From: Brachyspira innocens ATCC 29796
GTDB taxonomy: Bacteria > Spirochaetota > Brachyspiria > Brachyspirales > Brachyspiraceae
Assembly (NCBI RefSeq): GCF_000384655.1
Contig: NZ_ARQI01000099.1
Coordinates: 1 to 39,896, forward strand
Direction: 5' to 3'
DNA: 39,896 bases
In this document: one piece after another, positions 11,108-33,432 of the stretch
Layout of the letters: every line of letters begins with the position of its first letter
Position numbering within the stretch: position 1 is the first letter of the stretch
Program-made: the position numbers and the translations under genes
Notes under the pieces: generated by a model
What the model was told of the DNA's origin: nothing
Seen by the model: only the letters and a program-made list of their open reading frames with translations
Database searches by the model: none

Positions 11108-13033
11108 ATGTTTAAAACTACTGAACAACATGAAGCGTTCCGTGCTAAGGTCAGAGCTTGGGCAGAAGAGGTTGTTAAACCTATAGCAGTAGAGCTAGAC
11201 CTTGATAACAAATTCCCAGATGCAGCTGTAGCTGAAATGGGTGAAAAAAAATTAAATATCATGGGTTTGCCTTATGATAAAAAATACGGCGGTGCAGGAC
11301 TTGATGTATTAAGTTATGCAATAGCTGTAGAAGAACTTTCAAGAGTAGATGGCGGTGTAGGTGTTATTTTATCCGCTCATACTTCTTTAGGTTCTTATCC
11401 TATCGATGCTTTCGGTACAGAAGAACAAAAGAAAAAATACTTAACTCCTCTTGCTAAAGGGGAAAAAATAGGTGCTTTCGGTTTAACTGAACCAGAAGCT
11501 GGTTCTGATGCAGGTGGTACAGAAACTACTGCTGTATTAAACGGCGATCATTATATTTTGAACGGTGAAAAAATCTTCATCACTAATGCTCCTAAAGCAG
11601 ATACTTATGTTGTATTTGCTGTTACTACTCCTGGTATTGGTACTAGAGGTATCAGTGCTTTCATCGTAGAAAAAGGCTGGGAAGGTTTTGAGTTCGGTGA
11701 ACACTATAATAAATTAGGTATACGTTCATCAGCTACTGCTCAATTACTTTTCAATGATGTTAAAGTTCCTAAAGAAAACTTACTTGGTAAAGAAGGTCAA
11801 GGATTTAAAATTGCTATGATGACTCTTGACGGCGGTCGTATTGGTATTGCTGCTCAAGCATTAGGTATAGCACAAGGAGCTTATGAAGCTGCTGTAGAAT
11901 ATGCTAAAGAAAGAATACAGTTCGGACGTCCTATCGCTCAACAACAAGCTATTGCTTTCAAACTTTCTGATATGGCTACTAAATTACGTGCTGCTAGATT
12001 CTTAGTTTACAGTGCTGCTGAATTAAAACAAGCTCATGAACCTTATGGTATGGAAGCTGCTATGGCTAAACAATATGCTTCTGATATAGGTTTGGAAGTT
12101 GTTAATGATGCACTTCAAATCCATGGTGGTAATGGTTACATTAAAGGTGCTTACATGGTTGAAAGAGCTTATCGTGATGCTAAGATCTGTACAATCTATG
12201 AAGGTACTAACGAAATTCAAAGAGTTGTTATTTCTGCTTCTATACTTGGTAAAATGCCTAAAGCTCCTGCAGGTGCTGTTGCTGGTCCTATGGCTAAAAA
12301 AGGTCCTATCACAGGTGAAAGAAGAAATATCATCTTCAAAGATGGTTCAGCTCAGGAAAAAGTTGATGCTTTAGTAGCTGCACTCAAAAAAGATGGAATT
12401 GATTTCTCTGTTGGTATAGATATGAACACTCCTATAATTGATGCTGAAAGAGTAGTAAGTGCTGGTAAAGGTATTGGTGCTAAAGAAAACATGAAACTTG
12501 TTGAAGATTTAGCTAAAGCTGCTGGTGCTGCTATAGGTTGTTCTCGTCCTGTTGCTGAAGAATTGAGATACTTACCTATCAACAGATATGTTGGTATGTC
12601 TGGTCAAAAATTCAATGGTAACTTATATATAGCCTGCGGTATTTCTGGTGCTAACCAACACTTGAAAGGTATTAAAAATGCTGCTATTATTGTTGCTATC
12701 AATACTAGAGGAAATGCTAAAATATTCAAAAATGCTGACTATGGTATTGTTGGTGATGTTAAAGAAATTTTGCCTTTGTTAACTAAAGCATTAGGCGGTA
12801 CTGCTGCTAAAAAACCTGCAGAAGTTCCATACAAAAAAATGAAAAAAATTGCTCCTAAGAAAACAATTGAAATACCTAAAATTTATGTATGCAGCGGTTG
12901 CGGTTATGAGTATAATCCATTCATTGGTGATCCAGAAGCAGAAATAGCTCCAGGTACAGACTTTACAGCTCTTCCTGAAGAATGGGTATGTCCTGAATGT
13001 AGTGAAGAAAAAGCTAACTTCATTAAGGCTTAA
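11108..13033 (+). CDS. Three-domain acyl-CoA dehydrogenase / ETF-alpha / rubredoxin fusion
   Basis: One 641-residue flavoprotein with three parts. Residues 1-380 are a short-chain acyl-CoA dehydrogenase: FGLTEPEAGSDAG, the flavin segment, and the catalytic glutamate Glu365 in YEGTNEIQ. Residues about 405-565 are the FAD-binding C-terminal domain of electron-transfer flavoprotein alpha: VVSAGKGIG, GCSRPVAEE, YIACGISGANQH, IVAINT and ADYGIVGD. The N-terminal ETF-alpha domain is missing. Residues 593-641 are a rubredoxin with iron ligands Cys595, Cys598, Cys628 and Cys631. An Ala/Lys/Pro-rich linker joins the last two. The likely reaction is crotonyl-CoA/butyryl-CoA interconversion with electrons passed inside one chain. 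No EtfB gene is in view. AAGGAG precedes the ATG. The gene is 34 bases ahead of the flavodiiron gene. Confidence 0.93.
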   Translation: MFKTTEQHEAFRAKVRAWAEEVVKPIAVELDLDNKFPDAAVAEMGEKKLNIMGLPYDKKYGGAGLDVLSYAIAVEELSRVDGGVGVILSAHTSLGSYPIDAFGTEEQKKKYLTPLAKGEKIGAFGLTEPEAGSDAGGTETTAVLNGDHYILNGEKIFITNAPKADTYVVFAVTTPGIGTRGISAFIVEKGWEGFEFGEHYNKLGIRSSATAQLLFNDVKVPKENLLGKEGQGFKIAMMTLDGGRIGIAAQALGIAQGAYEAAVEYAKERIQFGRPIAQQQAIAFKLSDMATKLRAARFLVYSAAELKQAHEPYGMEAAMAKQYASDIGLEVVNDALQIHGGNGYIKGAYMVERAYRDAKICTIYEGTNEIQRVVISASILGKMPKAPAGAVAGPMAKKGPITGERRNIIFKDGSAQEKVDALVAALKKDGIDFSVGIDMNTPIIDAERVVSAGKGIGAKENMKLVEDLAKAAGAAIGCSRPVAEELRYLPINRYVGMSGQKFNGNLYIACGISGANQHLKGIKNAAIIVAINTRGNAKIFKNADYGIVGDVKEILPLLTKALGGTAAKKPAEVPYKKMKKIAPKKTIEIPKIYVCSGCGYEYNPFIGDPEAEIAPGTDFTALPEEWVCPECSEEKANFIKA

Positions 13034-13066: not shown

Positions 13067-14281
13067 ATGCATTGCGTTAGAAAAGTTACTGAAGATTTAT
13101 ATTGGGTTGGAGCTAATGAACACCGCTTGGCTCTATTTGAAAATGTACACCCTTTAACTAAAGGTGTTTCTTATAACTCTTATGTTCTTTTAGATGAAAA
13201 AACAGTTCTTTTTGATACAGTTGACTGGGCTGTTTGCAGACAATTCTTAGATAACTTAGAATATGTTTTAAATGGCAAAAAACTTGACTATATGGTTATT
13301 AACCACATGGAACCAGACCACGCTGCTTCTATAGACGAAGTTTTATTAAGACACCCTGAAACTAAAGTTATTTCTACTGAAAAAGCTTTCATGTTTATGG
13401 ATCAGTTCGGATTTACTGTTCCAGACGATAAAAAAATACAAGTAAAAGAAGGCGATACTCAAAAATTTGGTAAACACGAAATACTTTTCGTTGCTGCTCA
13501 AATGGTACACTGGCCTGAAGCTATGGTTAGCTTTGATACTACTAATGGCGTATTATTCTCTGCTGACGCTTTCGGTTCTTTCATCGCTTTAGACGGAAAA
13601 CTATTCAATGATGAAGTTAACTTCGACAGAGATTGGTTAGATGAAGCTAGAAGATATTATACTAACATCGTTGGTAAATACGGCCCTCATGTACAAAACT
13701 TGCTTAAAAAAGCTGGCGGAATCATTGATAAAATTAAAATGTTCTGTCCTTTACATGGACCTATTTGGAGAAATAATCTTGGATATATCCTTGATAAATA
13801 CAACAAATGGAGTACTTATGAACCTGAAGAAAAAGGTGTATTAATCGTATATGCTTCTATGTATGGTAATACTGAAAATATGGTTGGTGTTTTAGCTTGC
13901 AAATTAGCTGAAAAAGGTATTACAAACATCGTTATGCATGATGTATCAAGCACTGATGTTTCTTACTTGATTTCTGACACTTTCAAATTGAGCCATATTG
14001 TATTAGCTTCTGTTACTTACAACCTAAATATTTATCCGCCTATGCATAACTATTTAGATGATATGAGAGCTCTTAACGTTCAAAAACGTAAATTTGCTAT
14101 CATTGAAAATGGTTCTTGGGCTCCTAAATCTGGTGCTTTAATGCAGGAATTCATTGAAAATAATTTGAAACAATGTGAGATTTTAGATGCTCAAGTTTCT
14201 ATTACTTCTTCTATGAAAGCTGCTAACGTTGGCGAAATGGATGCTTTAGTTGATGCTATAGCTGAATCTATTAAAAAATAA
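13067..14281 (+). CDS. Flavodiiron protein (O2/NO reductase, FprA type)
   Basis: Cytoplasmic enzyme that reduces oxygen to water or NO to N2O. The N-terminal metallo-beta-lactamase-like domain holds the di-iron ligands His80, Glu82, Asp84 (HMEPDH), His148, Asp167 and His230. The C-terminal flavodoxin domain starts near residue 262 (VLIVYASMYGNTENM). The length of 404 residues is normal for the two-domain class without its own rubredoxin. It follows the gene whose product ends in a rubredoxin, the usual electron donor of such enzymes, with AGGAGG six bases before the ATG and a 33-base gap. The pair is therefore likely an acyl-CoA-linked or shared rubredoxin-to-oxygen pathway. Choice between O2 and NO cannot be made from sequence. 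Confidence 0.94.
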   Translation: MHCVRKVTEDLYWVGANEHRLALFENVHPLTKGVSYNSYVLLDEKTVLFDTVDWAVCRQFLDNLEYVLNGKKLDYMVINHMEPDHAASIDEVLLRHPETKVISTEKAFMFMDQFGFTVPDDKKIQVKEGDTQKFGKHEILFVAAQMVHWPEAMVSFDTTNGVLFSADAFGSFIALDGKLFNDEVNFDRDWLDEARRYYTNIVGKYGPHVQNLLKKAGGIIDKIKMFCPLHGPIWRNNLGYILDKYNKWSTYEPEEKGVLIVYASMYGNTENMVGVLACKLAEKGITNIVMHDVSSTDVSYLISDTFKLSHIVLASVTYNLNIYPPMHNYLDDMRALNVQKRKFAIIENGSWAPKSGALMQEFIENNLKQCEILDAQVSITSSMKAANVGEMDALVDAIAESIKK

Positions 14282-22255: not shown

Positions 22256-22888
22256 TTATTTATTTAATTCTTTTATCAATTTAGAAGCCTCTTCAAATCT
22301 TTTTCTAATTTCCTTCCAATTTTTCTCTTCCATTAAGTTTCTAGGGCAAAGCCAAGAACCTCCGCAGGCAAATACATGCTTATTTTCTAAATACTCTTTT
22401 ACATTATCAATGCTCACTCCTCCTAAAGGCATAAATTTAACACCAGTATGCTGATAAACAGGAGCTATATTTTTTATCCAATTAATTCCTCCAAATAAAC
22501 CTGCATGGAAAAATTTTATATATTTATGCCCATAAGCTAAACACTGCTCAACTTCAGAAGGTGTTGCAGCACCGGGTATATAATTATATTTTTTAGTTTT
22601 AGCATATTCAAGCATAATAGGCTGAAAACCTGGGCTTATTATTAAATTAGTTCCTAAATCAAGTATTCTGTCTACTTGTTCTGTACTTAAAACAGTAGCA
22701 GCAGCCCTTGGAAGAGTAGGGTAGTCTTTTGCTAATATCTCTAAAGCTTTATATCCGTATTCTGTTCTAAGTGTTAATTCTATAGAAGGCAGAAACTCCA
22801 AACAAAGTTCGGCTATATTTCTTATCTCTTCTTCATTTTCTACAACCACTACAGGTATAATTTTATTTTGTATATATTTTTCAAACAT
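22256..22888 (-). CDS. eda: 2-dehydro-3-deoxyphosphogluconate aldolase (KDPG/KHG family)
   Basis: Class I aldolase that splits KDPG into pyruvate and glyceraldehyde 3-phosphate, the last step of hexuronate degradation. The Schiff-base lysine is Lys125 in YIKFFHAG, and the acid/base Glu37 is in IELTLRT. The phosphate-binding LGGVS and GGSWL are also present. Two positions differ from the classical enzyme: KFFPAE is KFFHAG, and GAGTVL is AAATVL. The length of 210 residues is normal. GGAG lies five bases before the ATG. It follows uxaC by 42 bases and is last in the row of pathway genes. The position in the glucuronate operon makes KDPG the likely substrate. Confidence 0.92.
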   Translation of the reverse strand: MFEKYIQNKIIPVVVVENEEEIRNIAELCLEFLPSIELTLRTEYGYKALEILAKDYPTLPRAAATVLSTEQVDRILDLGTNLIISPGFQPIMLEYAKTKKYNYIPGAATPSEVEQCLAYGHKYIKFFHAGLFGGINWIKNIAPVYQHTGVKFMPLGGVSIDNVKEYLENKHVFACGGSWLCPRNLMEEKNWKEIRKRFEEASKLIKELNK

Positions 22889-22930: not shown

Positions 22931-24337
22931 TTAACTATTAAAGTAAATATTAGAATTATTAAAACATATATTTTCTATTATACTTCCTAAATATTTAATA
23001 TCATTAGGCACTTCTCCGTCTTCTGCCCATTTGCCTATTAAATTACATAGTATTCTTCTAAAATATTCATGCCTTGAATATGAAAGAAAACTTCTTGAAT
23101 CGGTAAGCATTCCTACAAATAAAGCTAAAGAACCGCTGTTTGCAAGAACTTTTAACTGCTCTTCCATTCCGTCTTTATTATCTAAGAACCACCAAGCAGA
23201 ACCAAGCTGCATTTTACCTTTTATGCCTTCATCTTGAAAGCAGCCCATAAGTGTAGAAAGCGGATAATAATCTTTATTGTTAAGACTATAAAAAATAATC
23301 TTTGGAAGTCCACCATTATTATTGGCAGTTTTTAATAGTGATGATAATTTTTCTATAATATTAGAATCTCCTACCGAGTCATATCCAGTATCAGCACCTA
23401 GTTTTTTAAACATCACTTCATTATTGTTTCTCATAGCTGAAATATGTATCTGCATAACTAGATTTGATTCTTTATATTTTTGAGTTAATTTAATAAGTAT
23501 ATATGTTTTATATTTTTCTATTTCTTCTAAAGACAATTTTTCTTTATTCATAGCCTTTTGGAAAATAGCATCTATATTATTTTCATTATCTAAATTAAAA
23601 GGCACTAATGACAAGGAACAATCGCTTGATACACAGCCTAAAGTTTTAAAATAATCTATTCTTTTATATAAAGCTTCAGTTAATGATTTTATATCTTTTA
23701 TATTAACAGAACTTGCTTTTTCTAACTTTTTTATATATTCGCTGAAGTCCTGCATTTCTATATTAATGGCTTTGTCTGGTCTGAAAGAAGGAACAACATT
23801 TGTATCAATTTTACCTATTTGAGCTTTTCCTTCTCTGATTAATTTATGATATTCTAAATCATCTATTGGATCATCAGTAGTGCCTATTGTATGAACTTTA
23901 AATTTTTTAAGAATATCTTTAACTGTCATATTCTGTAATTTTTCATTGGCTTTTTTCCAAATTATATCAGCATTATCTTCATTTATAATTTCATAAATAT
24001 CAAAATATCTTTGAAGCTCTAAATGACTCCAATGATATAAAGGATTTCCTATTAAATTAGGCACAGTTTTTACCCAAGCTCTGAACTTGTCATAATCTTC
24101 AGCATCTCCTGTTATAAATTTCTCATCTATTCCATTTGCCCTCATCATTCTCCATTTATAATGATCCCCGTAAAGCCAAATTTCAGTAAGATTATTAAAT
24201 TTTTTATTTTCAGCAATTTCTTTTGGGCTCAAATGACAATGATAGTCAAATATATTACATTTAGAAGCATAATCATGAAAAAGTATTTTAGCTGTATCAT
24301 TGTATAATAAAAAATCTTTATCCATAAAATTTCTCAT
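22931..24337 (-). CDS. uxaC: Glucuronate isomerase
   Basis: Converts D-glucuronate to D-fructuronate (and galacturonate to tagaturonate) in the cytoplasm. The metal-binding FDYHCHLSP is near the start, followed by GDHYKWR and TIGNPLYHW. GTTDDPID, PSFRPDKA, GMLTDSRSFLSYSRHEYFRRIL and NICFNN are all diagnostic. I take the ATG at 24337 with GAGGG nine bases ahead, giving 468 residues and an N-terminus (MRNFMDKDFLLYN) like that of E. coli UxaC. An in-frame ATG at 24403 lacks support. The gene lies 83 bases downstream of uxuA. Confidence 0.96.
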   Translation of the reverse strand: MRNFMDKDFLLYNDTAKILFHDYASKCNIFDYHCHLSPKEIAENKKFNNLTEIWLYGDHYKWRMMRANGIDEKFITGDAEDYDKFRAWVKTVPNLIGNPLYHWSHLELQRYFDIYEIINEDNADIIWKKANEKLQNMTVKDILKKFKVHTIGTTDDPIDDLEYHKLIREGKAQIGKIDTNVVPSFRPDKAINIEMQDFSEYIKKLEKASSVNIKDIKSLTEALYKRIDYFKTLGCVSSDCSLSLVPFNLDNENNIDAIFQKAMNKEKLSLEEIEKYKTYILIKLTQKYKESNLVMQIHISAMRNNNEVMFKKLGADTGYDSVGDSNIIEKLSSLLKTANNNGGLPKIIFYSLNNKDYYPLSTLMGCFQDEGIKGKMQLGSAWWFLDNKDGMEEQLKVLANSGSLALFVGMLTDSRSFLSYSRHEYFRRILCNLIGKWAEDGEVPNDIKYLGSIIENICFNNSNIYFNS

Positions 24338-24420
24338 AATATTTATCCCTCTTAAATTAAAAATAAATGCAATACAATTATAACTTTTATAACCGTATTG
24401 CATTAATGATATATGTATAA

Positions 24421-25488
24421 TTATTTACTCATTTTTTCTATAGCTTCCCATAAACCTTGTAAATAAACAGCACCTAATGCTCTGTCATAAAGTCCATATC
24501 CGGGCATAGATACTTCGTCCCAAATAGCTCTTCCATGATCTGGTCTGAAAGGTCCTTCAAAACCTATGTCATAAAATGCTTTCATAATGGCAAACATATC
24601 CATAGAACCGTCGCTTGATAAATGTGCTGCTTCTTGGAATTTTCCAGGTGCAGTATGCTCTAAGTTTCTAACATGTGCGAAGAAAATTTTGCCTTTCAAA
24701 CTTCTTACTATATCAGGTATATCGTTTTTAGGATTAGAACCTAAAGAACCAGCACATAAAGTTACCCCGTTGCAAGGGCTATTAACACTATTAACCATTC
24801 TCAAAATGTTTTCTTTATTAACTATAATTCTAGGAAGTCCAAATACTGGCCAAGCAGGATCATCAGGGTGTATAGCCATTTTGATATTGTATTTTTCACA
24901 AGTAGGCATTACAGCACTTAAGAAATATTTTAAATTTTCAAATAATTTCTCATCATCAACACCTTTATACATTTCAAAAAGTTCTTTTAATCTGCTGAGT
25001 CTTTCTGGCTCCCATCCAGGTAAAACAAATCCATTAGAACTTGAATCAATTTGTTCAAACATTTTTTGAGGATCTATTTTATCTATTATATCTTGATCAT
25101 AAGATAAAACAGTAGCTCCGTCTGGTCTTACCTTTGCTAAATCGCTTCTAGTCCAGTCAAATACAGGCATAAAGTTATAGCATACCAGATTAATTCCAGA
25201 TTTACCTAATACTTCTAATGTTTTTATATAGTTTTCTATATATTTATCTCTGCTAGGCAAACCTATTTTTATATCATCATGTATATTTACACTTTCTATG
25301 CCGTATATTTTTAATCCAGCTTCTTCAACTTCTTTTTTTAATTTTTGTACATCTTCTTCTTTCCAAGCTTCTCCAACTTTACTGTCATATAAAGTTGTTA
25401 TAACTCCTTTTACTCCGGGTATTTGTCTAATCTGTTTTAGAGTAACAGAATCAAAATTCTTTCCAAACCATCTTAAAGTCATTATCAT
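24421..25488 (-). CDS. uxuA: Mannonate dehydratase
   Basis: Dehydrates D-mannonate to 2-keto-3-deoxygluconate. The family features MTLRWFGKNFD, GVKGVITTLY, MAIHPDDPAWPVFGLPRI, CAGSLGSNPKND, HVRNLE and FRPDHG are in order; the last three include the metal ligands. The length of 355 residues matches the compact bacterial type. AAGGAG lies ten bases before the ATG at 25488. The gene begins 19 bases after uxuB, so the two are in one transcript. Confidence 0.96.
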   Translation of the reverse strand: MIMTLRWFGKNFDSVTLKQIRQIPGVKGVITTLYDSKVGEAWKEEDVQKLKKEVEEAGLKIYGIESVNIHDDIKIGLPSRDKYIENYIKTLEVLGKSGINLVCYNFMPVFDWTRSDLAKVRPDGATVLSYDQDIIDKIDPQKMFEQIDSSSNGFVLPGWEPERLSRLKELFEMYKGVDDEKLFENLKYFLSAVMPTCEKYNIKMAIHPDDPAWPVFGLPRIIVNKENILRMVNSVNSPCNGVTLCAGSLGSNPKNDIPDIVRSLKGKIFFAHVRNLEHTAPGKFQEAAHLSSDGSMDMFAIMKAFYDIGFEGPFRPDHGRAIWDEVSMPGYGLYDRALGAVYLQGLWEAIEKMSK

Positions 25489-25507: not shown

Positions 25508-27136
25508 TTATTTAATATATTTGTTTAAGCATTCCCTAACAGCATTTACGCCTATTATCATCTCTTTGAAATATTCTTCTATTCTGTTTCCTAGATTTAT
25601 TTTTTCATCATATAAATCACAAGCAAATATAATTTTGTTTGATAGTATAGGTTTTAAATTATCTCCTACACTATTTACATCTTTAAATTTTATGTTTTTT
25701 ATATGTTTCTGCAATTCATCAAGCATAGGGTCAGGACTTATTTCCATAGTATTTCCTTTGTCATCGATTCCCATTAAATATCTAAGCCAAGCTGCTATAG
25801 TTATAGGTATTCCAATTAAAGAAGAAGTATCAAGTCCGTTTTTTACATAAGATTTTAAGGTTTCTCCATATCTGATAGGTATTTTTTGGGAGGTGTCTGT
25901 GGCTATTCTTTTAGGAGAATCTGGTATATATGGATTGACTAATCTTTCTTCTATAACCTCTTTTATGAAGTCCATTGGATTTAAGATTTTAGGATTAATA
26001 ACTACTTTCATACCTTCATCATATCCTATTTTTTCTACTAGCTTTTTTAATATGGGGTCTTTCATTTCATTATATATAAAATCATAATCTAAAAGACAGC
26101 CGAATATTGCTAAAGATGTATGAAGAGGATTTAAACAAGTAGTAACTTTCATCTTTTCAGAGTTTTTTACAGTTTCTCTGTCTGTGATATATACTCCTGC
26201 TTTAGCTAAATCAGGTCTGCCGTTTGGAAATAAATCCTCAATAACTAAATATTCAGGTACTTCCGCATTTACAAAAGCAGCCATTGGATTATGTCCTACT
26301 TTGAATATCTGCATATCTTCAAGCCCTATACTCTCAAGTTTTTTTGATATAATTTCAGAAGGTCTTGGAGTAATTTTGTCAATCATACTAAAAGGAAAAG
26401 CAGCTTTTTTATTATCTTCAAGGTATTCTATAAATCCATTGTCAGCAAAACCTTTTTCTACCCATTCTTTAGCTATATCAATAACAGCACTTTTTAATTT
26501 ATCTCCATTATTAGAGCAGTTATCAATACTAAGCATTGCGATAGGATAGGCTCCATTTTTATATCTTTCTAAAAGCATAGCACAAGCGATACTCATAATA
26601 TTTTTTGCTTTTTTAGGCTCATTTTCAATATCATAAGCAACTATTTTATTATAATTACCGTTAGAATCTTTTATAGAGTAACCTTTTTCTGTTATAGTAA
26701 AACTTACTATTTGAAGCGAATCTGATATAAATATTTTTTTTAATTCTTCATAATAATTGATAAAATCAGCATGAAGTATATCAGTAATGCTTCCTATAAT
26801 TTTTTTATCTATATTCCCATCACTTTTAATAGATGCTAAAAGAGTGAGATTATCGAAAGGCTTATAAACTTTTTCAAGCATTTCATAATCATCATCTCTT
26901 CCAGCAGCATGTGTATCGACAGCTATTATACCAGTATTTATAATATTATCATTTAAAAGAGTATCAGATATTCTCGCAACAAAACCTCTGAATATATTAC
27001 CAGCCCCGAAATGAATCCAAGTTGGTTTTTCATTCGTATTTTTTCTAATTTGTTTTATATCATACTTTGGTATTTCTATATTATTTTTTTCAAAAAAGGT
27101 TTTATTGTTTATTAAGTTTTCAATATTAATTTTCAT
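25508..27136 (-). CDS. uxuB: Fructuronate reductase / mannonate oxidoreductase
   Basis: NAD-dependent reductase of the mannitol-dehydrogenase family that turns D-fructuronate into D-mannonate. The nucleotide-binding IHFGAGNIFRGFVA is near residue 40. FKVGHNPMAAFVNAEVPEYLVIEDLF and the KVTTCLNPLHTSLA region hold the catalytic lysine and histidine of the family. The length of 542 residues is at the long end but usual for the branch that includes uronate reductases. It is the first gene behind the palindromic operator at 27155-27166, with AGAGG before the ATG. uxuA and uxaC follow on the same strand. Confidence 0.94.
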   Translation of the reverse strand: MKINIENLINNKTFFEKNNIEIPKYDIKQIRKNTNEKPTWIHFGAGNIFRGFVARISDTLLNDNIINTGIIAVDTHAAGRDDDYEMLEKVYKPFDNLTLLASIKSDGNIDKKIIGSITDILHADFINYYEELKKIFISDSLQIVSFTITEKGYSIKDSNGNYNKIVAYDIENEPKKAKNIMSIACAMLLERYKNGAYPIAMLSIDNCSNNGDKLKSAVIDIAKEWVEKGFADNGFIEYLEDNKKAAFPFSMIDKITPRPSEIISKKLESIGLEDMQIFKVGHNPMAAFVNAEVPEYLVIEDLFPNGRPDLAKAGVYITDRETVKNSEKMKVTTCLNPLHTSLAIFGCLLDYDFIYNEMKDPILKKLVEKIGYDEGMKVVINPKILNPMDFIKEVIEERLVNPYIPDSPKRIATDTSQKIPIRYGETLKSYVKNGLDTSSLIGIPITIAAWLRYLMGIDDKGNTMEISPDPMLDELQKHIKNIKFKDVNSVGDNLKPILSNKIIFACDLYDEKINLGNRIEEYFKEMIIGVNAVRECLNKYIK

Positions 27137-27154
27137 TTTATAGCCTCTAAGTTG

Positions 27155-27197
27155 TATACTAGTATATTAATTCTACAAAAATAATATAAACTGTCAA
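27155..27197 (-). promoter_or_regulatory. Promoter and operator of uxuB-uxuA-uxaC-eda
   Basis: On the - strand TTGACA (27197-27192) is followed after 16 bases by TAGAAT (27175-27170). Just downstream is a perfect 12-base palindrome TATACTAGTATA (27155-27166), which shares the core ATACTAGTAT with the site ahead of the porin gene. It should be the site of the GntR-family regulator encoded at 31636. Confidence 0.8.
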
Positions 27198-27209
27198 GCA
27201 AAAATTATA

Positions 27210-28649
27210 TTATTGATTTTTAGCTTTTATTTCAGCTATAGCTCCTTGTATCTCTTCCATTTTCTCTCTAGTAAGAGGATAGAATCTCATAGCTATTATA
27301 TTTAATACCCATCCAATCATAGGAGCAAGGAATACACAGAACATAGTTACCCAGAAAATTCCTGTTGAATAAGGAGTATCAGGAGTAGGCTGAGTAGTTT
27401 TGAAACCTATCATAGCAATTAAAAGTCCTACTATAGTAGTAGCGAAAGATGATATTATTTTATCAACACAGCTGAATAATGTACCCATCAAACCCGGAAC
27501 ATATTTTCCAGATCTATAAGTTTCATAGTCGGCACAGTCAGCAGTCATAGGTATAACTATATTAGTAGATATTCCAGCAAAACCCTGCATTAATATCCAT
27601 AATACTATAAATGCTATAGTAAAGAAATTAGGATTTTTAAAGCTCATAGTAGTAGGCTCTCCAAAGATAAATAATAACAATAGAAGAGCAGCAAATATTA
27701 TACAGCCTATAGTACCAAATAATAATGCTTTTCTCTGACCCATACGGCTGGCTATAAATTTCATACCCAATATTATTATAATGATACTAGGTATACTATA
27801 TATAGCAGAAACCTCTCCGCTTAGAGCATAATTTCCGCATATTATACCGTAAAGCATAACTAATACTATAGAGTTAGATTGTATAGTAACAAAAAGTTTA
27901 CTTGTAGAAGCTGCAATTACAAGCATTTGTATTGCTCTGTTTTTTGTTATAACAGTCCAATAGTCTTTAAATGTAATTAATTGAGGCTTTCCAAGTCCGA
28001 AATATTCTGTTCTGTCTTTAGTCCATAATCCTATTATAGCTAGTGCAGATAATATGGCAGATACAATTATAGTAAATATTAAGAAAGTATTAAAAAACTC
28101 AGCATTAAAACCGCCGTATTTTGGTATCCATATTTTAGAAACTACAATCTGCATACCAGCAAATAATACAACATTATAACTTCCGTCAAATATTGTAAAA
28201 TAAGGTCTTTGTTTAGGATCATTAGTAAGACAAGTTTGAGCTGATTTTGTAACAACACATTGTAAAGTATATCCTATAATATATACAGCATATACCAATA
28301 TAAAGAATAATAATCTCATATTTTCAGGAGCTTTATATACAAATTTGTACATTATAATACAGGATATAATCATTACGATGTTTCCAGCAACTATAAAAGG
28401 TCTGTTTTTACCAAATTTTCCATTAGTTTTATCCAACATATAACCAACAAAAGGATCTGTTATAGCGTCCCAAATACGCATAGCAGTAAGAAGTGTAGAT
28501 ACCAAAACTACTCCTAATCCTAGCATTCCTGTAGCGTAATAAGATATAAAAAACATGAAAAACATGTATAAGTTAGTAGCTGTATTATTAAAAGCAAAAA
28601 ATGCTATCTGCCATATTTTGGCTCTATGATAATTAATTGTATTATCCAT
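27210..28649 (-). CDS. GPH-family sugar:cation symporter, probably for glucuronides
   Basis: A 479-residue inner-membrane transporter with about twelve helices. The N-terminus with the conserved aspartates in MRIWDAITDPFVGYMLDKTNGKFGKNRPFI is the signature of the glycoside-pentoside-hexuronide group (MelB, UidB). It stands between beta-glucuronidase and uxuB on the same strand, so glucuronides or glucuronate are the most likely substrates. AGGAGG lies eight bases before the ATG. The stretch between it and the glucuronidase gene holds an intercistronic hairpin. Confidence 0.92.
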   Translation of the reverse strand: MDNTINYHRAKIWQIAFFAFNNTATNLYMFFMFFISYYATGMLGLGVVLVSTLLTAMRIWDAITDPFVGYMLDKTNGKFGKNRPFIVAGNIVMIISCIIMYKFVYKAPENMRLLFFILVYAVYIIGYTLQCVVTKSAQTCLTNDPKQRPYFTIFDGSYNVVLFAGMQIVVSKIWIPKYGGFNAEFFNTFLIFTIIVSAILSALAIIGLWTKDRTEYFGLGKPQLITFKDYWTVITKNRAIQMLVIAASTSKLFVTIQSNSIVLVMLYGIICGNYALSGEVSAIYSIPSIIIIILGMKFIASRMGQRKALLFGTIGCIIFAALLLLLFIFGEPTTMSFKNPNFFTIAFIVLWILMQGFAGISTNIVIPMTADCADYETYRSGKYVPGLMGTLFSCVDKIISSFATTIVGLLIAMIGFKTTQPTPDTPYSTGIFWVTMFCVFLAPMIGWVLNIIAMRFYPLTREKMEEIQGAIAEIKAKNQ

Positions 28650-28675
28650 ATTTGGTGCCTCCTATTTTTTATAAA

Positions 28676-28706
28676 GGGCAGGAAAATTATTTTTAATTTC
28701 CTACCC
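28676..28706 (-). other. Intercistronic hairpin between glucuronidase and symporter genes
   Basis: On the - strand GGGTAGGAAA pairs with TTTCCTGCCC with one mismatch, around an 11-base loop. The tail is TTTATAAAAAAT, so it is at best a weak terminator. It may set a different mRNA level for the two genes. Confidence 0.55.
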
Positions 28707-28718
28707 ATAATTTTTTAA

Positions 28719-30527
28719 TTAATTATTTTTATAATCTAGCGGTAATTTAGTCCATCTGCTTCTTATTTGATGAGCAACTGCTTTAGGCTGACGGCTTCTA
28801 GTAAATATACCTTTTTTATTTCCGTCTACTCTGAATATTCCTTCAGTAGTTTGGAAATCAGCAAAGTTCCATAACTGTTCGCCTATTATAAAGTTGTAAC
28901 TATCAAAAACTTTGAAGTTCATTTCGTAGTATTCGCATTGATATTCTTCGCTCCACATAACAGAAGGAAGTTTATGAACACCTGCATAAGTATCAGCTCC
29001 GTATTCTGTAAACATAACTGGCTTATTCATATCTTTATAAAGGTTCATCTCTTCTCTGAATTTTTCTTCTGACATGTCTATTTCATAACCGCCCAAGAAA
29101 TACCAGCCGTAATATCTGTTTAATGTAATTACATCGCATAGATGCATGCATTTGCATTTACCTGGTGCTGATGCCTGAATAGCAGCAAAAGTTTTTGGTA
29201 AGTTTTGTTTATCTATGCTTTTTGCAAAGTTGAATATATCTTCAAAGTATGGCAAAGCTTCATCTTTGGAAGTGTCAGGCTCATTAAATAAGCTCCACAT
29301 AACAACGGAAGGGTGATTCTTATCTCTTGTAATAAGTTCTTCTACAGCTTTTTTATGAATTTCTTTAGTTTTTGTATGCACTTCTTCTAAAGAGAAATAG
29401 TCAGCTTTTGAAGCACCCGGATTTAATACAGATCCCACATCAAACATACCAACAGCAGCTATTTCATCTATAATAACTATACCTTCTCTGTCAGCAGCCT
29501 GCATTATCTCTTCACTATATGGGTAATGAGATGTTCTAAATGAATTAGCACCTATCCATTTAATAAGTTCAAAGTCTCTTTTTATTACAGGAGGATTATA
29601 ACCTCTTCCAGCTGTTTCACTGTCTTCATGTTTTCCGAATCCTGTAAAGTAGAAAGGTTTTCCGTTTATTAAGAATTTTGTACCTTCAACTTTTATTGTC
29701 CTTATTCCAAAGTCAAGATAATATTCATCTATTAACTCTTCACCGTTTTTAATGCATGCTTCAAATTTGTATAAATAAGCAGCTTTCGGATTCCATAATT
29801 TAGCATTTTTAATAACTATTTTTCCGCTTTTTCCTTCAGCACTTGCTACTTCTTTTCCTTCTTCATCATATATTTTTACGAATACTTTATTTTCACCTGT
29901 AGTATGTACTTCATAATTTACAATTCCGTCACTGCCGTTTATATCTGATAATATATCTATATCATAAATATATTCTTTGTTTGTAACGGTAATTTTTACA
30001 GGTCTGTTCAAACCAGCATAATTGAAGAAATCAAAAGAAGGTTTTATATATTTTTTGCCTGAAGGTTTAGTTTCTGTATGTCCGCAAGGCAATGTAGTAT
30101 TGCTAAGTTCATTATTAACAACTACAACTAATTTATTTTTTTCTCCGAATATTCCAGCTTCATTAACTGGAGCATTGAAAGGCATAAATCCGCCTACATG
30201 CGTGCATACTTCTTTTCCGTTAATATATACAGCAGCTTCATGTGTAGCACAGCCGAATCTTATATTAACATTTTTATCTTTCCATTCTAAAGGAAGATAG
30301 AATGATGTTTCATACCATATATCTCCAGCATGTTCTCTTATATTTTTATCTGTGAAAAGATCATTAAAACTAGATGGTACTGGTATAAATGTAGTGTCTT
30401 TTAATCCGCTAGCATAACCATTTTTTCTACCTTCATTGTTTGAGTCTATTTTAAACTCCCACATTCCAGATATATCAATAACTCTTCTTGTTCTGCTTTC
30501 TCTAGGATATAACATAGAATTAATCAT
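28719..30527 (-). CDS. uidA: Beta-glucuronidase (glycoside hydrolase family 2)
   Basis: Removes glucuronic acid from glucuronides. The order is sugar-binding, immunoglobulin-like and TIM-barrel domains. The acid/base is Glu416 in LFNEPDT and the nucleophile is Glu508 in FTEYGADT. The NKKGIFTR segment holds the Asn-x-Lys pair that recognises the sugar carboxylate, which separates glucuronidases from beta-galactosidases. Between IIDEIAAVG and VEELITRDKNHPS the sequence MFDVGSVLNPGASKADYFS stands in place of the active-site lid of E. coli GusA (loop 1), so a loop-1-like type is likely. There is no signal peptide, so it acts in the cytoplasm after uptake by the neighbouring symporter. The length of 602 residues matches E. 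coli. Confidence 0.96.
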   Translation of the reverse strand: MINSMLYPRESRTRRVIDISGMWEFKIDSNNEGRKNGYASGLKDTTFIPVPSSFNDLFTDKNIREHAGDIWYETSFYLPLEWKDKNVNIRFGCATHEAAVYINGKEVCTHVGGFMPFNAPVNEAGIFGEKNKLVVVVNNELSNTTLPCGHTETKPSGKKYIKPSFDFFNYAGLNRPVKITVTNKEYIYDIDILSDINGSDGIVNYEVHTTGENKVFVKIYDEEGKEVASAEGKSGKIVIKNAKLWNPKAAYLYKFEACIKNGEELIDEYYLDFGIRTIKVEGTKFLINGKPFYFTGFGKHEDSETAGRGYNPPVIKRDFELIKWIGANSFRTSHYPYSEEIMQAADREGIVIIDEIAAVGMFDVGSVLNPGASKADYFSLEEVHTKTKEIHKKAVEELITRDKNHPSVVMWSLFNEPDTSKDEALPYFEDIFNFAKSIDKQNLPKTFAAIQASAPGKCKCMHLCDVITLNRYYGWYFLGGYEIDMSEEKFREEMNLYKDMNKPVMFTEYGADTYAGVHKLPSVMWSEEYQCEYYEMNFKVFDSYNFIIGEQLWNFADFQTTEGIFRVDGNKKGIFTRSRQPKAVAHQIRSRWTKLPLDYKNN

Positions 30528-30573
30528 AAAAACAATTTCCTCCGTAATTATCTATAATCTTAATTTATATTAA

Positions 30574-31461
30574 TTAATCAAAGAATAATTTTGTCAAGTC
30601 AATACCAACTTTAAGTTCAAATCCCCAGCCATTTTTATTAAATTGAGATGAGCCTATTCCTAAAGCAGACATATCTTGTTTGAATATACCGCCATAGAAT
30701 AATCTAGGTTCGATGAAGAAAGTCCATTCTTCTAGGAAGAACTGTAAACGAGGATTGAATCTAATCCAATACCAATCTTTAAATGAAGTCTGAGCACCTG
30801 ATAATATTTTGAACTGTATTTCTGGTCTTAAAGCAAACCAATCATTGAAACGCATTTGATAAGCTACTCTAAACTCAGTACCGTCATACCAGCCTTGATT
30901 TAATTTTCCAGTCTTAGGATCATACTGATTTCCTCTTAAATATATATTCTGCTGAGCCATTACTGTTATAGAATGAGATTTGAAAGCTGCAACATCTGGA
31001 AGTTTTTTATTCAAATACATTACAAATACAAAATCACCTGATGAAGTAAGTCCCAAACTAAAAGTATTAAACAAATACATATTTCCTGTTAATTCAACAT
31101 AAGAAAAAGGGTTGGAAGTATTTTTTCCAGTACGGCTTCCTTCCTTCCAAGTAGGATCATAAACGCTTGGATTGTCAAACTGTGCTTGAAGTATGAATCC
31201 AAATCCTAACCATGGTACGCTTTTTAATGTCTGCAAATATGTAAGTTTGGTATCAAAGTTTTCCATCATTCTTTTTGCTTTAGGGTCTGTTCCTAAACTT
31301 GTTAAATCTCCTGAAGCATATTCAATGTAAAAACTTAACATTTTCATTGAACCAGGGTACACATTAAAAAACTTGAAAGCAGGATTCTGAGCATTAGATT
31401 GAGCAAAAGATATGCTGTAAAATAATGATATCATTATAATGCTTATAAATAATTTTTTCAT
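30574..31461 (-). CDS. Outer-membrane beta-barrel protein, candidate glucuronide porin
   Basis: A 295-residue exported protein. The signal peptide is MKKLFISIIMISLFYSISFA-QS, cleaved after Ala about residue 20. The mature part alternates short strands rich in Phe, Tyr and Trp (FSYVELTGNMYLFNTFSLGLT, EWTFFIEPRLFYGG) and ends on a strand finishing in LFF-D, as barrel proteins do. No exact porin family can be named; position suggests uptake of glucuronides or uronates, as KdgM-like porins do for oligouronates. I place the start at 31461 (AAAGGAG seven bases ahead). The frame runs up to 31482 into the operator. It is the first gene after a well-formed promoter and operator and leads the glucuronidase-symporter row. 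Confidence 0.85.
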   Translation of the reverse strand: MKKLFISIIMISLFYSISFAQSNAQNPAFKFFNVYPGSMKMLSFYIEYASGDLTSLGTDPKAKRMMENFDTKLTYLQTLKSVPWLGFGFILQAQFDNPSVYDPTWKEGSRTGKNTSNPFSYVELTGNMYLFNTFSLGLTSSGDFVFVMYLNKKLPDVAAFKSHSITVMAQQNIYLRGNQYDPKTGKLNQGWYDGTEFRVAYQMRFNDWFALRPEIQFKILSGAQTSFKDWYWIRFNPRLQFFLEEWTFFIEPRLFYGGIFKQDMSALGIGSSQFNKNGWGFELKVGIDLTKLFFD

Positions 31462-31472
31462 ACAAAACTCCT

Positions 31473-31517
31473 TTACTAACATACTAGTATTTTAGTAAAA
31501 TAAAATCCCATTGTCAA
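31473..31517 (-). promoter_or_regulatory. Promoter and operator of the porin-uidA-symporter operon
   Basis: On the - strand TTGACA (31517-31512), 17 bases and TAAAAT (31494-31489) form a near-consensus promoter. A 26-base palindrome (31473-31498) with a single symmetric mismatch pair covers the -10 box: TTACTAAC-ATACTAGTAT-TTTAGTAA on the + strand. A regulator bound here would block transcription. Confidence 0.88.
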
Positions 31518-31554
31518 TAAAAAACAGAACTTTTTTATATTTTTTTTTAATACC

Positions 31555-31583
31555 TTGAAGTTTATTAATAAATAATGTATGCT
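31555..31583 (+). promoter_or_regulatory. Probable promoter of the GntR-type regulator
   Basis: TTGAAG (31555-31560) and TATGCT (31578-31583) are 17 bases apart. The -10 box overlaps the first in-frame ATG (31579), so translation should start further down at 31636. Confidence 0.5.
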
Positions 31584-31635
31584 TTATTTGATATTAGATA
31601 TTAATAAATATTTTTTAAGGATATACTTTGATACT

Positions 31636-32343
31636 ATGGCGAAATCTAAAAATAATAATGCAGATAATATTATAGTACTTGAAAGAGATATAAATGAATC
31701 TATAGGTGATTATGCTGTAAGATGTTTAGAATATAATATTATGACAATGAATTTGGTACCTGGTACTTTTATAAGTGAAAAAATTATAAGTGAAATGTTA
31801 TCAATAAGCAGAACACCCATAAGAGAGGCTTTCTCCAGACTTGAGAAAATAAATTTAATAGAGATATATCCGCAGAAAGGTACTATGGTATCATTAATAG
31901 ACACATCTATTGTAGAAGAAACAAGCTTTATGAGAATGGTATTTGAAAAAGAAATAATTAAAATTGTTTGTAAAAATATCGAAGAAAAAGATATAAAACT
32001 TATAAATAAAAATATAGAAGCATATGAAAAAAACATTAATACTCATAAGCTTTATGAACTGCTTAAATTGGATAATGAATTTCATAGAATACTTTTTTTT
32101 ATAGCAGATAAAAAATTAACATATAATCTTATTAAGGATTCTATAAAACATTTTAATAGGGTTAGAATATTTAATATGCTTGAAATGGACAGAGGAAGAA
32201 CATTAATAGAACATAAAAATATATTAGAATATATAAAAGAAAAAAATACTAAAAAACTTCTTCCCTTAATAGAATCGCATATTACTCATGTAAAAGATGA
32301 CATGGTTTTTTTAAAAAGTAAATTTCCTGAATATTTTAAATAA
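31636..32343 (+). CDS. GntR-family (FCD) transcriptional regulator of hexuronate genes
   Basis: A 235-residue DNA-binding regulator. The winged-helix domain includes LVPGTFISEKIISEMLSISRTPIREAFSRLEKINLIEIYPQKGTMVS. The FCD ligand domain follows, with metal-type residues in LLKLDNEFHRILFF, LIEHKNILEYI and IESHITHV. The FadR subgroup to which it belongs includes UxuR/ExuR-type uronate regulators. Divergently oriented from the porin operon and convergent with the kinase gene, it is the only regulator in the locus. The three palindromes in the locus (27155-27166, 31473-31498, 33389-33412) are its likely sites. AAGGA lies 14 bases before the ATG, which is long, so the exact start is uncertain. Confidence 0.88.
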   Translation: MAKSKNNNADNIIVLERDINESIGDYAVRCLEYNIMTMNLVPGTFISEKIISEMLSISRTPIREAFSRLEKINLIEIYPQKGTMVSLIDTSIVEETSFMRMVFEKEIIKIVCKNIEEKDIKLINKNIEAYEKNINTHKLYELLKLDNEFHRILFFIADKKLTYNLIKDSIKHFNRVRIFNMLEMDRGRTLIEHKNILEYIKEKNTKKLLPLIESHITHVKDDMVFLKSKFPEYFK

Positions 32344-32344
32344 T

Positions 32345-33367
32345 TTACCTTTTTACATCAAGTCCGTCTTTGGATTTCACAAGATTTATTACCTCCTCTT
32401 TTGTAGTTAAATTCCAATCTCCGGGTATGCTGTGTTTTATACAAAAAGAAGCCGCTGCAAACTCTAATATATCCTGATAATTAGTAAATAACTGCATTCC
32501 AGAAAGTATTCCAGCAGCAAATGAGTCTCCTGTACCTATTCTGTCGATAATATTTTTTATATAGTATTTTTTTGATTTATATAAATTATTATCTTTATAG
32601 AGCAGACTATATATGTTATTATGATTTGAGCTTATTGTTTCTCTTCTTGTTGTTACTACCATATCCAAGGAGTATTTATCTATTAATTGCTGCATAATAG
32701 ATTTATAATCATTGTCGCTTATATCTGAATCAACATCTATACTGCTCTGTACGCCCAAAATTTTAACAGCATCATATTCATTTGCAAATACTATATCAGA
32801 ATATTTTACTATTTCGGGCATTACATCATCTATTTTTTTACCGTATTTCCATAATTTTTTTCTATAGTTTATATCACATGATACCTTTACATTTCTCTTT
32901 TTAGCTTCTTTCACAGCATATAACGTAAGATCTGCAGCAGTTTGGCTAATTGCTGGTGTTACTCCGCTTATATGAAAATACGATGCATCTCTAAATACTT
33001 TATCCCAATCAAAGTCTTCTATTAAGGCTTGTGATATAGAAGAATATTCTCTATCATAAATAACATTTGAACTTCTGTAATTATTTCCTTGATCCACAAA
33101 ATATATGCCAAGTCTTTTACCTTCCCATGATATAGCTGAAGTATCAACCTTGTGACTTAAGAGCAATTCTTCAACTTTTTTTCCTATAGCATTATCTGGA
33201 AGAGCAGTTACATATCTGCTTTGCAAACCAAATATTGAAGCTAAAACGCATATATTTGCTTCAACTCCTCCGAATGTGGCATTAAGCTTTGACGATTGAA
33301 ATAATCTTTCATTGTCTGCTGATGAAAGTCTTAACATTATTTCACCGAAACCCACTATATATGACAT
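32345..33367 (-). CDS. kdgK: 2-keto-3-deoxygluconate kinase (PfkB family)
   Basis: Phosphorylates KDG to KDPG. The PfkB family anion-hole motif DRIGTGDSFAAGIL holds catalytic base Asp281. The N-terminus GFGEIMLRLS and the substrate-binding FGGVEANICVLASIFG fit sugar-acid kinases. The 340 residues are usual. The context fixes the role: uxuA makes KDG and eda splits KDPG, and both are in the same locus. GAGAGGA precedes the ATG. The operator at 33389-33412 lies just ahead of the gene, and the stop codon is one base from that of the regulator on the other strand. Confidence 0.93.
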   Translation of the reverse strand: MSYIVGFGEIMLRLSSADNERLFQSSKLNATFGGVEANICVLASIFGLQSRYVTALPDNAIGKKVEELLLSHKVDTSAISWEGKRLGIYFVDQGNNYRSSNVIYDREYSSISQALIEDFDWDKVFRDASYFHISGVTPAISQTAADLTLYAVKEAKKRNVKVSCDINYRKKLWKYGKKIDDVMPEIVKYSDIVFANEYDAVKILGVQSSIDVDSDISDNDYKSIMQQLIDKYSLDMVVTTRRETISSNHNNIYSLLYKDNNLYKSKKYYIKNIIDRIGTGDSFAAGILSGMQLFTNYQDILEFAAASFCIKHSIPGDWNLTTKEEVINLVKSKDGLDVKR

Positions 33368-33388
33368 AGAATGTCCTCTCTATAATTA

Positions 33389-33432
33389 TACTGACATACT
33401 ACTATATTAGTAAAATAAATATGAAATGTCAA
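33389..33432 (-). promoter_or_regulatory. Promoter and operator of kdgK
   Basis: On the - strand TTGACA (33432-33427), 17 bases and TAATAT (33409-33404) form a promoter. The palindrome at 33389-33412 (TACTGACATACTACTATATTAGTA) covers the -10 box in the same register as at 31473-31498, and most bases and the flank TAAAATAAA are shared. Confidence 0.86.

Follow-up and report, generated by a model that had tools for sequence, protein, structure and literature searches.

A predicted local hexuronate regulon in Brachyspira, with an FCD-type GntR regulator and operators centred on ACTAGT

Two FCD-type GntR proteins, UxuR and ExuR, serve glucuronate breakdown in Escherichia coli; their operator is of the GGTATACC type, and uxuR adjoins uxuA-uxuB. 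Here we describe a locus of Brachyspira innocens ATCC 29796 in which putative porin, beta-glucuronidase (uidA) and symporter genes, kdgK and uxuB-uxuA-uxaC-eda accompany one FCD-GntR gene, whereas the predicted operators are centred on ACTAGT. The window, that is, the whole stretch of DNA analysed, is 39,896 nt long (contig NZ_ARQI01000099.1), has a G+C content of 28.5% and is part of a 3.28-Mb genome in 130 contigs. An earlier note had read the locus as a self-contained glucuronate regulon with three matching operators. Our computational analysis indicates that the regulator and its predicted operators very probably make up a local regulon under negative control.

Other FCD-GntR systems can be compared with this one. 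Thermotoga maritima UxaR (TM0439; PDB 3sxy, 3fms) also has a site before kdgA-kdgK-uxuB-uxuA and is among the best profile and fold matches of the Brachyspira regulator, but it controls pectin genes too, and its motif is 17 nt long (PMC3750489). Agrobacterium Atu1419 (VanR; 6za3, with DNA) likewise combines the FCD fold with a 10-bp palindrome over the -10 box and Zn in the effector domain, but it binds ATGTATACAT, in the order GT...AC, acts on hydroxycinnamate genes, and is a tetramer able to loop sites 190 bp apart (PMC7797058). E. coli NanR binds adjacent boxes as several cooperating dimers (PMC8012715), and adjacent boxes, 8 bp apart, are seen in the Brachyspira sequence as well; NanR, which is concerned with sialic acid, uses three dimers on direct GGTATA repeats, whereas the Brachyspira boxes are inverted ACTA/TAGT. 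Extra half-sites 7-12 nt away are described for GntR proteins (Suvorova 2015, PMC4494728), and the outer TAGT boxes of Brachyspira fit this description. The boxes in that study flank GT...AC palindromes, which is also the consensus order of the FadR group, NyGT-x-ACNy, whereas the Brachyspira core reads AC-TA-GT. The regulator family is known; the operator geometry is a variant.

Each of three promoters on the minus strand of the window, located where the earlier note had placed them (Table 1), combines a perfect TTGACA box with ATACTAGTAT or a one-mismatch form of it. At the porin site, a 26-base palindrome at 31473-31498, complementarity extends to 12 of 13 pairs. The copy of this palindrome at kdgK (33387-33414) differs from it by 3 mismatches of 26. 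Taken as 28-mers, the kdgK site has 10 of 14 complementary pairs and the uxuB site 9 of 14, with all of the six central ones paired. The operators at porin and kdgK lie on the -10 box, while the uxuB core TATACTAGTATA, at 27155-27166, comes directly past it. On all these points, from the near-palindrome to the close copy and the core at uxuB, the earlier description was borne out.

In DNA this rich in A+T such palindromes could be chance features of ordinary promoters, or inverted repeats that act in the mRNA, and the core alone is indeed at chance level in the genome, with 9 copies of ATACTAGTAT against 10 of the reversed pattern. The core by itself is thus not diagnostic, and the core-only scan was dropped as evidence. 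Within the window the 12-base core, at up to 2 mismatches, is only mildly above chance (17 against 9.9 expected). From the density of ATACTAGTAT in the genome, the chance of finding a core in one given 70-bp promoter is about 2e-4. The extended site, by contrast, is specific to the locus. At up to 3 mismatches the 26-mer matches twice in the window and never in 100 shuffled versions, and the 28-mer has 2 matches in the whole genome, both at the locus, with 0 for the reversed-pattern control; a looser 26-mer scan of the genome gave 2 of 2 matches at the locus and 1 in the control. The extended pattern identified no further regulon members elsewhere in the genome, which agrees with the view of a self-contained regulon. 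Since the core alone is not rare, the uxuB site rests on its promoter position and on its conservation, which holds for 9 of 9 species loci. Given the specificity of the extended site, its conservation across species with fixed geometry, and the recurrence of this core at loci with a mean G+C of 46% (both below), we regard an origin by chance or a role in mRNA as hardly credible.

To compare the locus within the genus, 26 Brachyspira genomes were used, and upstream sequences were read in all 14 with the regulator. The orthologue (at least 59% identity) occurs in these 14 of the 26 genomes. A fifteenth has a 32% paralogue as its sole regulator match passing the E-value, and paralogues occur in three others too; uxuA is present in 18 and UxaC in 16 of the 26. 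One relative of the regulator, at a single locus of an uncultured Brachyspira, was found in the named genome collection. All 14 genomes with the orthologue have the operator at the divergent promoter, before the porin gene in nine, a tripartite ATP-independent periplasmic (TRAP) transporter in three and a dehydrogenase-TRAP operon in two (in G003 the operator and the regulator lie on separate contigs, both near contig ends, and their adjacency is presumed). Many 3-mismatch matches to the loose pattern used across the genus are no commoner than matches to its reversed control, and for this reason the counts are restricted to sites at the locus and at two relict loci.

The other two operators follow gene order closely. 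Where uxuB comes after the symporter gene and has its own promoter, an operator precedes it in 9 of 9 loci; where TRAP or dehydrogenase genes stand immediately before uxuB, the operator is missing in 4 of 4, the best core there matching at 7-9 of 10 positions without outer arms. Likewise kdgK has an operator in all 13 loci where it has a separate promoter (8-10 of 10 core positions matching), and none in the sole locus, G019, where it ends an operon. Combined, this gives 22 of 22 at the heads of units against 0 of 5 at internal genes, an unusually clean comparative record. Because the operators are present at copies of uxuB and kdgK with their own promoters and absent at internal ones, we place them at the heads of transcription units.

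Behind the kept operator the transporter module has been exchanged. Specifically, TRAP genes stand there in L021, L029 and L031, and in L030 and L038 a set consisting of a ureidoglycolate/malate-type dehydrogenase, TRAP and a Zn dehydrogenase replaces porin-uidA-symporter.

The regulator has GntR (PF00392, 41.3 bits) and FCD (PF07729, 51 bits) domains, both above cut-off, and reaches none of the NCBIfam equivalog cut-offs. Translation probably starts at the ATG at 31636 rather than at the upstream ATG at 31579, as orthologues align from 31636. By Pfam and NCBIfam annotation it is the only regulator gene inside the cluster, and it is the sole FCD match detected in the genome, in a search that was positive in 8 of 14 control genomes. 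The alignment to E. coli UxuR reaches 20.8% identity over 202 aa (E 2e-7), and ExuR aligned over 49 aa only. The fold model, with a mean predicted local distance difference test score (pLDDT) of 91, is best matched by 7u5q, a Brucella GntR protein (template modelling (TM) score 0.85), with VanR Atu1419, McbR and TM0439/UxaR among the other matches; a profile search also returned 7u5q first and then TM0439. Judged from these comparisons the regulator is not an orthologue of E. coli UxuR, from which it also differs in being local and the sole FCD protein detected. The earlier idea of a UxuR with a new motif is thus not upheld, and among the structures matched TM0439 is the nearest studied hexuronate relative. 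Four residues, D146, H150, H193 and H215, are invariant in 18 aligned sequences and presumably form the FCD metal site.

Contact positions were set by alignment to E. coli FadR, and residues were counted by eye in 49 homologue rows, four Brachyspira-paralogue loci included. The window regulator has Lys at position 28, where just 2 of the 49 rows have Arg. Pro occupies position 40 in every row (49 of 49), and all rows but one (48 of 49) have Gln at position 59. For the TKGT/ACMA groups Arg28 and Gly59 are reported to favour, and Pro40 to avoid, G/C at site positions 6/14 (PMC4494728). At the second base of TNGT the putative recognition residues fit A/T better than G/C, in keeping with TAGT.

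Outside Brachyspira the same core recurs beside more distant regulators. A search of 392 Spirochaetota genomes identified homologues at E 1e-25 or better in 54, of which 40 do not belong to Brachyspira, and all 44 listed non-Brachyspira places were taken as 43 loci with a mean G+C of 46%. When the 1024 ten-base palindromes were ranked by excess over a first-order expectation, ATACTAGTAT came first, present in 12 of 43 loci against 0.15 expected, although near-duplicate loci (e.g., L075 and L076) mean that 12 overstates the number of independent events. In control stretches from 20 of these genomes it occurs in 0 of 20 (Fisher p 0.007), and the form TACTAGTA is present in one of the 20 control stretches, compared with 18 of the 43 loci. 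The homologues with the enriched core have 27-42% identity and belong to other families, so the motif is not confined to this regulon. Of the 20 TACTAGTA sites, two lie inside an open reading frame (ORF) as called, L073 (where the long regulator start was taken) and L091. The others precede uxuB (L052), uxuA (L053, L095), TRAP binding proteins (L054, L055), a Gfo/Idh oxidoreductase (L053), the regulator itself (L085, L094), an unrelated-looking gene (L084), and genes resembling ATP-binding cassette transporters (L058, L059, L060, L074-L076, L078, L079), an assignment mostly read from sequence by eye and checked with Pfam for L058 alone.

The second-ranked palindrome, TAGTATACTA (5 loci against 0.11 expected), is of the GT...AC form and often overlaps or adjoins ACTAGT (L053 8331, L075 4701).

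The position of the operators suggests how they would work. From TTGAC to the operator centre the distance is 32 bp in 9 of 9 porin and 3 of 3 TRAP promoters, and the operator therefore covers the -10 box and the start. Repression is favoured for this reason. Alternatively, the operators may belong to the regulator while the regulator activates, or both activates and represses. Activators are described among FCD proteins, for example CitO, and at several kdgK promoters of other species the operator centre lies 46-55 bp from TTGAC, downstream of the start and off the -10 box. The fixed overlap at the porin and TRAP promoters and the full TTGACA boxes of the window promoters argue the other way. 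Transcription activators normally bind upstream of the promoter, and altogether we consider this alternative improbable.

Apart from these kdgK promoters, several observations weigh against the local repressor regulon as we draw it. Seven other copies of the core lie in the genome, none near a hexuronate gene on inspection, and two of them (L043, L045) are just upstream of unrelated ORFs; the outer arms of the window uxuB site are weak (17/26). Among the distant loci the exact ATACTAGTAT is missing in 31 of 43 and TACTAGTA in 25 of 43, the latter of which may use other motifs. Pro40 and Gln59 are found also in homologues without the motif, so these residues do not discriminate and were rejected as its markers. 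The binding of T. maritima UxaR was unresponsive to the hexuronates and intermediates tested (PMC3750489). Finally, two genomes, G001 and G011, retain a site without a detected regulator, although in these genomes the pathway genes show damage or the locus stops at a contig end.

The last point, and the fact that FCD-GntR binding to the palindrome is predicted from sequence, would suit a different transcription factor as the binding protein, with the FCD-GntR gene merely a neighbour. What speaks for the FCD-GntR protein, as the earlier note had proposed, is that it is the only regulator in the cluster and the sole FCD protein detected in the genome, and that the core is enriched beside its distant homologues. 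In addition, among genomes with uxuA, a site accompanies the regulator in 14 of 14, whereas 1 of the 4 lacking the regulator has one (4/816 = 0.005, with relatedness ignored). Specifically, G010, G013 and G016 have uxuB-uxuA without the orthologue, and upstream of uxuB they reach at best 8 of 10 core matches and have no site. Binding by another factor is accordingly very unlikely.

The two relict loci have features of their own. In G011 (L037 5620-8020) uidA is in two frames, with an IS1595-type transposase fragment and the retained operator near the contig end. In G001 (L036 3517-6790), a genome without uxuA, the operator stands before an open frame with a kdgK-like start and a mannitol-dehydrogenase-type remainder, and the locus continues with a galactarate-dehydratase-family gene and then eda. 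As for the isolated core copies in the B. innocens genome, ATACTAGTAT at L045 1501 (C124) and at L043 1548 (C113) precedes an ankyrin-like ORF and a 301-aa ORF, respectively, by about 30 bp; both may be chance occurrences or weak sites.

Across 22 distinct sites of the genus, the information content is 1.35 to 2.23 bits at each of the ten core positions and 1.0 to 1.3 bits at the outer positions 4, 6, 23 and 25 of the 28-mer. Written as half-sites, the best operator is ACTA, ACTA, TAGT, TAGT with an 8-bp step, and TA is common to the two inner half-sites. We interpret this sequence as a back-to-back arrangement of overlapping GntR sites. That more than one dimer occupies each predicted operator seems to us possible, at somewhat less than even chances. 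The sites had been described as unlike the GTATAC-type site of E. coli, which holds for the constant core order AC-TA-GT; GTATAC itself, however, occurs in all 9 uxuB sites, as well as in 2 of 13 kdgK and 1 of 14 divergent sites (12 of 36 altogether). At the uxuB sites it overlaps the core, 4 bp off the core axis. The full E. coli form GGTATACC is absent from all three window operators, and the nearest form, GGTATACT, is found at kdgK of G017.

A wider proposal, which we advance tentatively and with more doubt than belief, is that a group of spirochaete FCD-GntR hexuronate regulators uses back-to-back ACTA/TAGT operators with outer boxes 8 bp away instead of convergent GT...AC sites. Two dimers would share ACTAGT and repress cooperatively, and the regulator-operator pair would be kept while transporter modules (porin-glucuronidase-symporter, TRAP, dehydrogenase-TRAP-RspB) are swapped.

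For the locus itself we propose the following mechanism. The unliganded regulator would bind the predicted operators at the porin-uidA-symporter, kdgK and uxuB-uxuA-uxaC-eda promoters, through an array of half-sites made of two TAGT/ACTA in ATACTAGTAT and either outer boxes 8 bp away (porin, kdgK) or GTATAC (uxuB). At the porin and kdgK promoters of the window, where the operator overlaps the -10 box and start, the bound regulator would exclude RNA polymerase, and at the uxuB promoter it would sit just past the -10 box. A breakdown intermediate would then enter the metal-containing FCD pocket and release the regulator; most likely this is D-fructuronate or D-mannonate, possibly 2-keto-3-deoxygluconate (KDG). 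The divergent operator is centred about 150 bp upstream of the regulator ATG, and autoregulation is possible but not indicated.

No UxaC was detected in G003 and G021, both of which carry the regulator (they are 86-88% complete, so that the absence is provisional), and the G021 operon includes an RspB-like dehydrogenase, which we expect to feed L-gulonate into fructuronate. On both grounds glucuronate is unlikely as the sole effector. If the effector is conserved, it would therefore be an intermediate common to all variants, that is, fructuronate, mannonate or KDG. Fructuronate relieves repression by E. coli UxuR (PMC12842492). For a pathway intermediate as the class of effector we see evenly balanced chances.

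Use of glucuronides is documented in the genus for B. pilosicoli: strains B2904 and WesB are positive on D-glucuronic acid and beta-methyl-D-glucuronic acid and strain 95/1000 is not, a defect that the authors link to a missing KDG kinase (PMC3532143). In the open-licence literature searched, we found neither this regulon for Brachyspira nor such a regulon for spirochaetes. The same literature held no paper on TACTAGTA with GntR and none combining ACTAGT, FCD, GntR and operator; papers containing ATACTAGTAT seemed, among the matches listed, to be unrelated when judged by title. The predicted regulon bears on when gut Brachyspira would take up glucuronides, and the regulator-operator pair may serve as a basis for predicting hexuronate or glucuronide use across spirochaetes. 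The reversed order of the half-sites also makes this a simple case in which to test what determines the operator geometry chosen by GntR-FCD proteins.

Table 1. Predicted features of the hexuronate locus and the basis of each assignment (positions in the window; KDPG, 2-keto-3-deoxy-6-phosphogluconate; GPH, glycoside-pentoside-hexuronide; AF2, AlphaFold2)
Feature	Position	Strand	Basis
eda, KDPG aldolase	22256..22888	-	TIGR01182 above cut-off
uxaC, glucuronate isomerase	22931..24337	-	PF02614; NF002794 above cut-off
uxuA, mannonate dehydratase	24421..25488	-	PF03786; TIGR00695 above cut-off
uxuB, fructuronate reductase-like	25508..27136	-	Mannitol_dh domains; best NCBIfam PRK15037 below cut-off
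Operator 3 (uxuB), core TATACTAGTATA at 27155-27166, overlapping GTATAC box	27147..27174	-	position, genus conservation
uxuB-uxuA-uxaC-eda promoter, TTGACA-16-TAGAAT	27170..27197	-	motif reading
GPH-family sugar:cation symporter	27210..28649	-	PF13347 above cut-off; TIGR00792 below cut-off
uidA, beta-glucuronidase	28719..30527	-	NF007538, 771 bits, above cut-off
'Porin' of the earlier note, exported protein with signal-peptide-like start, identity unproven	30574..31461	-	kept in 9 loci incl. window
Operator 1, divergent promoter, four-box palindrome TTTACTAAAATACTAGTATGTTAGTAAA	31472..31499	-	identical in 9/9 porin-type loci
porin-uidA-symporter promoter, TTGACA-17-TAAAAT	31489..31517	-	motif reading
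FCD-type GntR regulator, 235 aa	31636..32343	+	Pfam GntR and FCD; AF2 pLDDT 91
kdgK, KDG kinase (PfkB family)	32345..33367	-	PF00294; closest NCBIfam models incl. KDG kinases, below cut-off
Operator 2 (kdgK), TTTACTAATATAGTAGTATGTCAGTATA	33387..33414	-	sequence match, genus conservation
kdgK promoter, TTGACA-17-TAATAT	33404..33432	-	motif reading

The gene calls of the earlier note were right by Pfam and NCBIfam, apart from the 'porin', which has no match in either; its strand-rich fold model is too poor to judge (pLDDT 39).

Between uxuA and uxaC, at 24366-24404 on the minus strand, lies a hairpin with an 18-bp stem and a U-rich tail, which the uxaC ORF as listed, extending to 24403, takes in. 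Strong hairpins occupy the same position in 10 of the 14 Brachyspira loci folded, with paired changes among loci, and the element could serve in attenuation or in protection of the uxaC-eda part of the mRNA. Elsewhere in the window, 11108-13033 on the plus strand encodes an acyl-CoA dehydrogenase fused to an FAD domain of the electron transfer flavoprotein (ETF) alpha type and a rubredoxin, and the adjoining 13067-14281 encodes a flavodiiron-type (ODP) protein.

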